Below are positions 1,583-53,473 of a DNA stretch of 61,440 nucleotides, one piece after another. Position 1 is the stretch's first letter. Each line of letters starts with the position of its first letter. The notes beneath the pieces were generated by a model, which made no database searches, was not told the DNA's origin, and saw nothing but the letters and a program-made list of their open reading frames with translations. This stretch comes from Acidimicrobiia bacterium (lineage in GTDB: Bacteria > Actinomycetota > Acidimicrobiia > Spongiisociales > UBA11373): contig JBBDMM010000013.1 in NCBI GenBank assembly GCA_040878325.1, positions 1-61,440 on the forward strand, given 5' to 3'. The position numbers and the translations under genes are program-made.

Positions 1583-1682
1583 GCCTCGCTTCGCTCGGCC
1601 CGCGATTCGCAATTCGACAGAACGGGTGACCGCGCTCGATGCGGGTCAGCTCGAATCTTGCGGAAGGCGGAAGGCGGAAGGC
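1583..1682. repeat. STOP-adjacent box plus 7-bp arrays (GCRATTC x2; GGAAGGC x3)
   Basis: The whole gap between two convergent stop codons is repeat-like. The box GCCTCGCTTCGCTCGGCC begins at the base after the TAG of the upstream gene (1583-1603 including its tail). Two heptads follow, GCGATTC at 1602-1608 and GCAATTC at 1609-1615. A different array, GGAAGGC three times, fills 1662-1682 and touches the sigma-factor stop codon. It belongs to the window-wide heptad family. Confidence 0.75.
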
Positions 1683-11710: not shown

Positions 11711-11781
11711 AAGAATCAAGAATCAAGAATCAAGAGTCGGGAAGGAAGGCGATCTTGAATCTTGGCTCTTGACTCTTCCTC
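11711..11781. repeat. 7-bp array, AAGAATC type, with inverted CTTGAYT arm
   Basis: AAGAATC occurs three times in a row followed by AAGAGTC (11711-11738). After a 15-base centre, CTTGAAT, CTTGGCT, CTTGACT and CTTCCTC follow in phase (11754-11781). The two arms are roughly complementary and could fold into a long imperfect stem. The array lies between the PDZ-Lon start and the bioY stop codon at 11787. Confidence 0.72.
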
Positions 11782-44747: not shown

Positions 44748-45602
44748 CTAGCGAACAGATCCCTCGGCCAGGGCCACCGTGTTGAACAGCAGGCCGGCGA
44801 TCGTCATCGGGCCGACGCCTCCAGGGACCGGGGTGACCCCTGCCGCCACCTCCACCACCTCGTCATAGACACAATCACCCACCAGGCCACCATCGACCCG
44901 GGTGGTGCCGGCATCCACCACGAACGCGCCCGGTTTGACGTGCCGCCCGCTGATCAGGCCGGGTCGCCCGGCGGCGACGAATAGCAGGTCGGCCCGGGCG
45001 GTCACCTCGTCCAGATCGGATGTGGCGGTGTGGGCCAGGGTGACTGTCGCGTCTCTCCCTTTGAGACCAAGCATCACGGCCAGGGGTCGGCCCACGAGCG
45101 TCGATCGCCCTACGACCACGGCCCGGGCGCCGCGGGTCTCGATCCCGTAGTGATCGAGCAGGCGGAGGATCCCGGTAGGGGTGGCGGGCCGCGGTCCCGG
45201 CACATTGCTGACCATGCGACCGAGGTTCACCGGATGGAGACCATCGGCGTCCTTGTCGGGATCCATCCCACCGAGGACCGGAGCGGGATCGAGATGGCCC
45301 GAAAGCGGCAGCTGGACGATGTAGCCATCGACCTCGGCATCGCCGTTGAGCCGTTCGACGGCCTCCTCCACCTCCCGCTGGGAGGCGCTCGCCGGTAGCC
45401 GCAGGTCGAAGGAGCGCATCCCGGCAGCCTCCGCCGCCTGGTGCTTGTTGCGCACATAGACCGCCGACGCCGGGTCGTCACCGACCAGGAGGGTCGCCAG
45501 ACCCACCCTCTTCCCTTCGGCGGCCAAAGCCCCCACCCTGCCGGCGATCTCGGCGCGCCACACCGCAGCCGCTTCGGTTCCGGAAAGTACGCGCGCGGTC
45601 AT
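44748..45602 (-). CDS. folD: bifunctional methylene-THF dehydrogenase/cyclohydrolase
   Basis: A 284-residue FolD. VRNKHQAAEAAGM contains the catalytic lysine, VQLPLSGHLDP the substrate loop, VVGRSTLVGRPLAVML the NADP motif and PGGVGPMTIAGLLFNT the C-terminus. It interconverts methylene- and formyl-tetrahydrofolate. The ATG at 45602 begins the conserved MTARVLSG; the upstream extension would be made of heptad-repeat sequence. No strong ribosome site. Confidence 0.93.
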   Translation of the reverse strand: MTARVLSGTEAAAVWRAEIAGRVGALAAEGKRVGLATLLVGDDPASAVYVRNKHQAAEAAGMRSFDLRLPASASQREVEEAVERLNGDAEVDGYIVQLPLSGHLDPAPVLGGMDPDKDADGLHPVNLGRMVSNVPGPRPATPTGILRLLDHYGIETRGARAVVVGRSTLVGRPLAVMLGLKGRDATVTLAHTATSDLDEVTARADLLFVAAGRPGLISGRHVKPGAFVVDAGTTRVDGGLVGDCVYDEVVEVAAGVTPVPGGVGPMTIAGLLFNTVALAEGSVR

Positions 45603-45627
45603 TGGCGGGAGTGTATGGCGCAAGCGG

Positions 45628-45780
45628 CCACCCGCCTCCCGCCACCCGCCTCCCGCAAGAACCAAGAATCAAGACCCAAGAGCCAAGTCAAGGTAGAGAC
45701 TTGCCGCTAGAAGGGTTCAAGCTCGCAACGTTGCGACCAATGCGTTGCGCATTGCGCATCGCGGTCCGAGCGGAGAGGCC
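45628..45780. repeat. eight in-phase heptads of two families, plus TGCGCAT array and box
   Basis: CCACCCG, CCTCCCG, CCACCCG, CCTCCCG, CAAGAAC, CAAGAAT, CAAGACC and CAAGAGC run without a break (45628-45683); the 7-base phase is kept across the change of sequence at 45656. Further on, TGCGCAT repeats twice with flanking variants (45739-45766). Next to the udk stop codon a divergent box lies in minus orientation (45761-45780). All of it is between folD and udk. Confidence 0.78.
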
Positions 45781-45786
45781 CCCAGC

Positions 45787-46437
45787 TCAACTCTGGCGCA
45801 GTACGTCGCGGATCATCGAGATCACGGTCCCCACCGCTCCGAGGTTGTAGCCCTCGGGAATCACGATGTCGGCATATCGCTTCGACGGCTCCACGAACTG
45901 GAGGTGCATCGGGCGCACCGTCTCGAGGTACTGCGCTCGGACCGACTCGAAAGTACGGCCCCGCTCGTTGATGTCTCGGGCGAGACGGCGCACGATCCGC
46001 AGGTCGGCATCGGTGTCGACATACACCTTCAGGTCCATCAGGTCGCGTAGGTCGGGCTCGTAGAGGACCACGATGCCCTCGACCACCACCACCGGCTTCG
46101 GCTCCACCGCAACGGTCTCCAGCGCCCGGTTGTGCACGGTGAAGTCGTACACCGGACGCTGAATCGCGTTTCCCTCGAGCAGGCTCTTCAGGTGGCCCAC
46201 CAGCAGGTCGGTCTCCAGCGAATCGGGGTGGTCGTAGTTGACCTTCGCCCGCTCCTCGAGTGGCAGGTGGGTGAGGTCGCGGTAGTACGCGTCGTGCTGG
46301 ATGAGGGTGACGCTGTCCTCACCGATCGACCCGACGATCGACTCGGCGATCGTCGTCTTGCCCGATCCCGACCCGCCGGCGATCCCGATGATCAAGGGCC
46401 CGGCCGTCGGCCACGACCGCAGCGGAAGAGGAGGCAT
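45787..46437 (-). CDS. udk: uridine kinase
   Basis: A 216-residue P-loop kinase with GIAGGSGSGKTTIAESI, the substrate segment YYRDLTHLPLEERAKVNYDHP and RLARDINERGRT lid, all characteristic of uridine/cytidine kinase. It phosphorylates uridine for pyrimidine salvage. The ATG at 46437 allows a short proline-rich N-terminus; the fold begins at about residue 14. Divergent from the CNNM gene across a hairpin GGCCCAGA/TCTGGGCC (46457-46488). Confidence 0.92.
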   Translation of the reverse strand: MPPLPLRSWPTAGPLIIGIAGGSGSGKTTIAESIVGSIGEDSVTLIQHDAYYRDLTHLPLEERAKVNYDHPDSLETDLLVGHLKSLLEGNAIQRPVYDFTVHNRALETVAVEPKPVVVVEGIVVLYEPDLRDLMDLKVYVDTDADLRIVRRLARDINERGRTFESVRAQYLETVRPMHLQFVEPSKRYADIVIPEGYNLGAVGTVISMIRDVLRQS

Positions 46438-48655: not shown

Positions 48656-48765
48656 GCCTCGCTTCGCTCGGCGGCGATTGGCGATTGGCGATTGGCAATT
48701 GGCAATAAGCGGGTCCCGCTTCGCTCGATTGCGAATCGCGAATCGCTGATCGCAGTTCGCAAGAA
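48656..48765. repeat. two boxes and two heptad arrays between sucC and sucD
   Basis: A box (48656-48672) lies four bases upstream of sucD. GCGATTG three times, GCAATTG and GCAATAA follow (48674-48708, five heptads). A second, partial box is at 48709-48727 and a second array of GCGAATC twice, GCTGATC, GCAGTTC and GCAAGAA at 48731-48765. It separates two genes that normally overlap or touch. Confidence 0.78.
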
Positions 48766-50405: not shown

Positions 50406-50477
50406 TCAAGAGCCAAGAGCCAAGAGCCAAGAGCCAAGATGATTTCCTGTCTTGATTCTTGATTCTTGATTCTTGAC
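50406..50477. repeat. heptad hairpin: CCAAGAG array and TCTTGAT array in inverted order
   Basis: TCAAGAG, CCAAGAG three times and CCAAGAT (50406-50440) face TCTTGAT three times and TCTTGAC (50450-50477) across the 9-base loop GATTTCCTG. Each facing pair of heptads matches in five Watson-Crick pairs and one G-T pair of seven. The structure ends seven bases before the mgtC stop codon and could act as a terminator or message stabiliser. Confidence 0.78.
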
Positions 50478-50483
50478 TCTCTC

Positions 50484-53311: not shown

Positions 53312-53361
53312 GGCCGAAGTGTAGGACGCACCTCCCCCGAGAATGCCAGCCATGTGATTAG

Positions 53362-53473
53362 GCCTCGCTTCGCTCGGCCCGCAATTGGCGATTGGCGATT
53401 GGCAAGACGGCCTCGCCTCGCTCGGCCCGCAATGCGCGAGGCGCCATGCGCTATGGCCGAGCGCAGCGAGGCC
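53362..53473. repeat. three boxes with GCRATTG and GCGCNNN heptads
   Basis: A box at 53362-53382 leads into GCAATTG, GCGATTG, GCGATTG and GCAAGAC (53381-53408). A second box at 53410-53430 leads to GCGCGAG, GCGCCAT and GCGCTAT (53434-53454). A third, inverted box (53455-53473) touches the stop codon of the CheA-like gene. Together they fill the pcrA-CheA gap. Confidence 0.78.

Follow-up and report, generated by a model that had tools for sequence, protein, structure and literature searches.

Heptad arrays with a common GCAAGA end in intergenic DNA of an Actinomycetota genus, viewed from two touching arrays between udk and folD

Introduction

The heptads GGGAATC and GGGGA(C/T)T of Xanthomonas and Nostoc are variable at some positions of the unit and occur genome-wide in intergenic regions, most commonly as arrays of four units, which lie at a mean of 28 nt from one neighbouring gene versus 160 nt, frequently form facing inverted pairs and occupy the same spacers with different sequence across species; the portions of that study available to us describe one unit type per genome, explained by G-quadruplex potential (PMC4692102). 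Among the work cited there are the short tandemly repeated repetitive (STRR) heptanucleotides of heterocystous cyanobacteria, including three tandem heptanucleotides in Calothrix, and the heptameric excess of prokaryotic simple sequence repeats, which was attributed to polymerase slippage (Mrazek 2007; both as cited in PMC4692102). In the marine Beggiatoaceae, TAACTGA direct repeats are mostly intergenic and patchy in their phylogenetic distribution, and the available part of their description gives a single unit, with other heptads in some spacers and related heptads being rare (PMC4679880).

The locus described here carries two heptad arrays that touch. A preliminary description of it had proposed that the heptad phase is kept across the switch of repeat family, and had seen in this the trace of a single process that adds 7-bp units while the unit itself can change. 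Here we compare the junction with array ends across the genome that carries it and in related genomes.

Results

The window, as we call the whole stretch of 61,440 nucleotides analyzed, comes from a 2.21-Mb genome of the Actinomycetota (G000), where it is contig 13; one further member of the genus (G001) was available for comparison. The spacer of interest is bounded upstream by udk (uridine kinase, 45787..46437, minus strand; NCBIfam NF004018/TIGR00235 above cut-off) and downstream by folD (methylenetetrahydrofolate dehydrogenase/cyclohydrolase, 44751..45602, minus strand; NCBIfam matches). On the plus strand, positions 45628-45655 read CCACCCG CCTCCCG CCACCCG CCTCCCG, that is (CCWCCCG)4, or CNCCCGC when the unit is anchored at the array end, and positions 45656-45683 read CAAGAAC CAAGAAT CAAGACC CAAGAGC, followed by CAAG at 45684-45687. 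There are zero bases between the arrays (45655|45656), and Tandem Repeats Finder returned the same two, at 45627-45656 and 45656-45687 with one base in common, which together with direct reading confirms the earlier statement that (CCWCCCG)4 touches a four-unit CAAGA array with no base lost or gained. That description had given the second consensus as CAAGARY and its end as 45683; the four units stand, while the consensus has to be widened to CAAGANY because the third unit is CAAGACC, and the array, correct as far as it was given, really ends four bases later, so that array and partial unit occupy 45656..45687 of the plus strand.

The hexamer that straddles the join, GCAAGA (45655..45660, plus strand), takes in the 3' terminus of the C-rich array and the start of the second one and is the top array-end hexamer in both G000 and G001. 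A small inverted pair, CAAGTC ... GACTTG (45684..45703, plus strand), closes the CAAGANY array and is paired in the predicted fold; it is a weak equivalent, in this spacer, of the facing arrays present at other loci. In the same predicted RNA fold of the spacer, which has a z of -4.8 against shuffles on the plus strand and -2.7 on the minus strand, GGCGGGAGTG (45603..45645, plus strand) pairs with the C-rich array. The repeat search also found a third, weaker heptad array in this spacer, GCGTTGC GCATTGC GCATCGC G (45742..45763, plus strand). Rfam gave no match over the arrays, its sole match being a tRNA at the window edge, and a known structured RNA family was ruled out for them on this ground.

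Period 7 is in clear excess in G000. The sample of 1.17 of its 2.21 Mb, partly picked for matches, held 300 period-7 arrays, compared with 34-49 at periods 6, 9 and 12, eight at period 5 and five at period 8, and no period-7 array arose when 200 kb was shuffled under a Markov model. The units are of at least ten types (among them GCGATTG, GCAATTC, GCGATGC, GCGATAC, GCGGAAG, GCGGGAG, ACTGGAG, GCTGGAG, CCCGCTA and CAAGANY), and their placement is intergenic: 265 of 293 arrays lay outside predicted genes, although the genes predicted by a simple script written for this work cover 88.5% of the sampled DNA. G002, G009 and G011 also carry heptad arrays, built of other units, and G003, G007 and G012 have hardly any. 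Other genera of the family have heptad arrays of different units in the spacer upstream of folD, namely G010 (L227), G011 (L226) and G009 (L228).

When public genomes were searched for the junction pattern, allowing 0-13 bases between its two parts, 44 stretches were returned, mostly lone matches in unrelated phyla, with a cluster contributed by the metagenome-assembled genome JAUYIV01, which match positions identify as G001; the viral sequence collection contained no array with a GCAAGA end. In an Acidobacteria MAG (L053:7536-7570), a C-rich array runs into CAAGANC units in a window-like junction in another phylum. G020, a distant genome that belongs to a different family of the same order, has about 100 matches to CAAGACC arrays, some of them very long (L278 and L292 are examples). 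The backward control pattern gave 19-25 matches each in G016, G023 and G037, so that these genomes would carry AGAAC-type heptads, the period of 7 being constant and the units varying by lineage. G/C runs of 15-45, some adjoining short N gaps, were seen in L111:11659-11738, L109:18135-18157 and L122:4623-4667; they are probably assembly joins and were excluded from the mixed-array counts.

For several C-rich units (CTTCCGC, CTCCCGC, TACCCGC and CTCCAGC), GCAAGA is a fixed array end. It stands in fixed register in 67 of 76 such arrays of G000, about 11 being expected at a chance of 1/7 when the AAGA scored is the first one lying no more than 20 nt from the array end. Broken down by unit, AAGA was in register in 32/35 arrays of CNYCCGC, 9/10 of TNCCCGC and 26/31 of CNCCAGY, and in G001, another species of the genus, the count was 19/24. 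Behind 64 of the 67 in-register arrays of G000 there is a single CAAGA and no further array; the share of such single tags in G001 is biased, since nearly all of its 40 sampled contigs were picked from match lists for these patterns and thus for carrying CAAGA arrays. Past the AAGA, conservation is essentially absent in G000 (at most 0.25 bit), and the DNA beyond the motif is unrelated between loci.

A scan that made no choice of unit, in which every hexamer in intergenic DNA was ranked for its occurrence after period-7 runs, placed GCAAGA first in both species (36/131 sites and 52-fold in G000; 19/58 and 27-fold in G001). Conversely, 58% and 66% of the intergenic GCAAGA sites of G000 and G001 are preceded by a repeated 7-mer, versus 10% and 19% for permuted hexamers, and 138 of 149 CAAGANY arrays terminate in CAAGA. 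In G002, which belongs to another genus, AAGA is the top tetramer at array ends, on small counts (7/271). Within the window, further instances are a (CTTCCGC)3 array that ends in GCAAGA at 1656..1682 on the minus strand, a [GATTGGC]n array with the same end at 53381..53407 on the plus strand and a GNATYGC-type array followed by GCAAGA at 48728..48764 on the plus strand (repeat search and motif position); the arrays themselves lie at 1660-1682, 53381-53403 and 48728-48761, respectively. The join in the window is thus one more ordinary end of an array, GCAAGA at 45655-45660, with a CAAGA heptad that has been arrayed too. Not all units use this motif, since a second group, GCAATTC and GCGATAC, ends at GACAGA/GAAGGA and not at GCAAGA; the end that closes these arrays in G000 reads GACAGA(A/G/T)CGCG or GAAGGA (L112, L132, L156 and L111).

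The argument that two arrays of separate origin would share phase only about one time in seven is invalid, because any array can be read in seven rotations and a lone junction, whose unit frame rotates freely, carries no phase information. A test free of rotation compares unit matches in the shared frame with those in all rotated frames, and was applied to 36 mixed junctions at which the arrays touch. Of 7 positions, 1.49 matched on average in the shared frame versus 1.51 in the other frames, and the shared frame was the best one in 6/36 junctions, close to the 1/7 expected; the units of the window junction itself gave 1.8 matches in frame versus a mean of 1.9 out of frame. Because the shared frame had no advantage over these 36 junctions, phase is not kept in general between touching families, and the proposal that it is preserved over a family switch is not supported.

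Touching as such is enriched, with gaps of -2 to +1 in 27/124 mixed neighbours within 60 bp of each other, where about 7 are predicted from the other gaps. Where a CCCG array leads into a CAAGANY array, in G000 and G001 taken together, the exact register of the window recurs in 14/28 joins, 4 being expected; the remaining joins are mostly 1-2 nt longer, and the forms CCCGTCAAGA and CCCGTCGAAGA are common in G001. This pairing is far from random, yet not strictly periodic, and its register recurs because the GCAAGA boundary is conserved at most C-rich ends, with no CAAGANY array behind. The preliminary idea of a single 7-bp process with a changeable unit therefore keeps the recurring join register on its side and loses the carriage of phase across families. 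The narrower notion that the unit may change while the period stays 7 fared better, given that the spacers upstream of folD differ in unit between genera and that some arrays change by small in-frame steps, from CTTTCGC to CAATCGC in L125, from AGTCGCC through AGTCGCA to AGACCCA in L292 (G020) and from GATTCCC through GAATTCC to GTATGGC in an uncultured viral contig (L294:3079-3153).

Arrays turn over between the two species, whose median protein identity is 77%. Among 45 orthologous spacers, arrays were present in both genomes in 17, in G001 only in 7, in G000 only in 1 and in neither in 20, and the unit at one place often differs between the species. In the orthologous spacers L168/L164 and L197/L099, both species carry the CAAGANY array and G001 alone has a CCCG array as well, which meets it in phase in L168 and after one more base in L197. 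From this comparison, the CAAGANY array seems to have come first at some orthologous spacers, and C-rich arrays may also be added beside an existing CAAGA, so that either array could have arisen first at the window locus.

The arrays that carry the GCAAGA tag face inward in their spacers: in 63/71 cases a gene lies closer to the array side than to the tag side, with median distances of 17-18 nt on the outer, array side and 96-98 nt on the tag side. Facing arrays of one family within a spacer form 50 neighbouring pairs in G000 and 39 in G001, and the repeat search found two such CAAGANY / RNTCTTG pairs in the window, at 50407..50480, where they form an imperfect hairpin, and at 11711..11777. 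Facing arms outside the udk-folD spacer are imperfectly complementary (z -1.7), and a stable RNA or DNA hairpin as their sole purpose was rejected on account of this imperfect pairing and of a placement that is independent of transcription. In L167, L182, L190 and L204 of G001, facing CAAGANY arrays surround a near-identical centre, CTTCTCTGG, with unit variants that differ per side, and look like copies of one element.

Four units are the preferred length. Array lengths in G000 peak at 30 bp, a length of four units and two further bases, five-unit arrays being few, and the peak is broader in G001. The units of 310/371 arrays in G000 have neither GGG nor CCC, and among these GGG/CCC-free arrays 85 measure 29-31 bp, 29 measure 26-28 bp, 28 measure 32-34 bp and 7 measure 36-38 bp. 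We rejected a G-quadruplex explanation, since most units lack G- or C-tracts and the four-unit peak persists among them, so that G-quadruplex formation is not its cause in G000. A terminator- or REP-like palindrome, GGGCCGAGCGAAGCGAGGCCC, adjoins GCAATTC and GATTGGC arrays at 53360-53380 of the window and in many other spacers of G000, and GCGATAC arrays, like those of GCAATTC, often lie beside it; its core 13-mer is the commonest non-periodic 13-mer of the sample, with 31 copies.

Discussion

The touching arrays are probably best read as a C-rich array of the udk-folD spacer that ends at the genus-typical GCAAGA, the boundary heptad CAAGANY being arrayed as well, so that both arrays abut one motif. 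The window arrays touch, and do so in a register seen at many loci, because they abut the same short motif. Array length would change in 7-bp steps through replication slippage or unequal exchange, and arrays may spread among spacers by recombination or copying. The motif GCAAGA would be the edge that stays fixed, either as the place where the process begins or halts or as a requirement of some bound factor.

A role at gene ends, in which arrays and GCAAGA would be binding sites or RNA hairpins selected there, for instance for termination or 3'-end protection, seems to us unlikely. It would account for the short distance from arrays to genes (outer-side median 17 nt), often directly past stop codons and beside GGGCCGAGCGAAGCGAGGCCC palindromes, for the frequency of facing inverted arrays and for the preferred four-unit length. 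However, placement is alike beside start codons and in divergent spacers, the arms of facing arrays complement each other imperfectly (z -1.7), and the 25 array-bearing orthologous spacers divide into 17 shared and 7 + 1 private ones, a gain and loss between species that speaks against such a function.

We give a low probability to the suggestion that a dedicated, putative process recognizes GCAAGA or is arrested there and builds up 7-bp units 5' of it, so that the heptad arrays of this lineage would be made by an anchored mechanism instead of free slippage. We also consider it improbable that the motif is a site of action at which a putative nuclease or a polymerase pause makes 7-nt staggered duplications just 5' of it. 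That CTTCCGC, TACCCGC, CTCCAGC and GATTGGC units all stop at GCAAGA with unrelated DNA after it, and that the arrays are oriented one way relative to the motif, is what such an action would leave behind; but the units are not arbitrary 7-mers, and because a limited set of them recurs genome-wide, copying between loci would be needed as well. Neither an enzyme nor a factor was found. The RAYT-type Y1 transposase domain PF01797 was absent from all 14 genomes of the family, the control genomes being positive, and reverse transcriptase (PF00078, RVT_1) was found in neither G000 nor G001; REP/REPIN mobilization by RAYT and reverse-transcriptase templating of the repeats were rejected on these grounds.

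A single process that adds 7-bp units, with the unit changing along the way and the phase carried over the switch, is likewise doubtful. The period does stay at 7 over many units, the same folD spacer has different unit families in G011, G010 and G009, and stepwise in-frame changes occur in L125, L292 and L294 (GATTCCC to GAATTCC, for instance). Nevertheless, the shared frame is not favoured at the touching mixed junctions, the units of the window have almost nothing in common in frame, and the register is already fixed at loci that have a single GCAAGA and no second array. Coincidence, in which two independent arrays arose adjacent to each other, is scarcely credible, for although a lone junction with rotatable units says nothing of phase, touching is enriched among mixed neighbours and the CCCG-CAAGA register recurs.

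Why a repeat length of seven is favoured in some bacteria is an old question, which is narrowed here, under the preferred reading of GCAAGA as a shared boundary, to what acts at that motif, in a genus where many heptads stop at one six-base sequence and on the same side. The present case also carries a caution for similar loci, as a single junction of tandem arrays has no phase, its frame being rotatable. The preference for four units without G-tracts argues that the G-quadruplex explanation given for Xanthomonas and Nostoc is not general.

The cyanobacterial STRRs resemble the present arrays, as far as the accessible account of them goes, in that several heptanucleotide families share the intergenic DNA of one genome, and differ from those of G000 in their units and in the phylum. 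We know of no common end motif for them. The heptamers surveyed by Mrazek (2007), as reported in the citing source, share the preferred period of 7 and the explanation by slippage; slippage alone, however, accounts neither for one fixed motif at the array end nor for a sharp four-unit preference. The TAACTGA repeats of the Beggiatoaceae are likewise heptad direct repeats, mostly intergenic and patchy, with other heptads in some spacers, but, in contrast to those of G000, are not described in the available part of their report as facing arrays with a common boundary (PMC4679880). With the repeats of Xanthomonas and Nostoc, the arrays have in common the dispersed intergenic 7-bp units, variable at some positions, the four-unit mode, the proximity to one gene, the facing pairs and the occupation of the same spacers by differing sequences across species, as far as the consulted sections of that paper describe them; unlike there, at least ten unit types occur here, most of them without GGG or CCC, and arrays of G000 and G001 share the GCAAGA end, an end motif not being mentioned in those sections (PMC4692102). 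The closest known systems are thus the STRRs of cyanobacteria and the GGGAATC repeats of Xanthomonas, and what is new in the present genus is the many unit types, their common end motif and a four-unit preference that is free of G-tracts.
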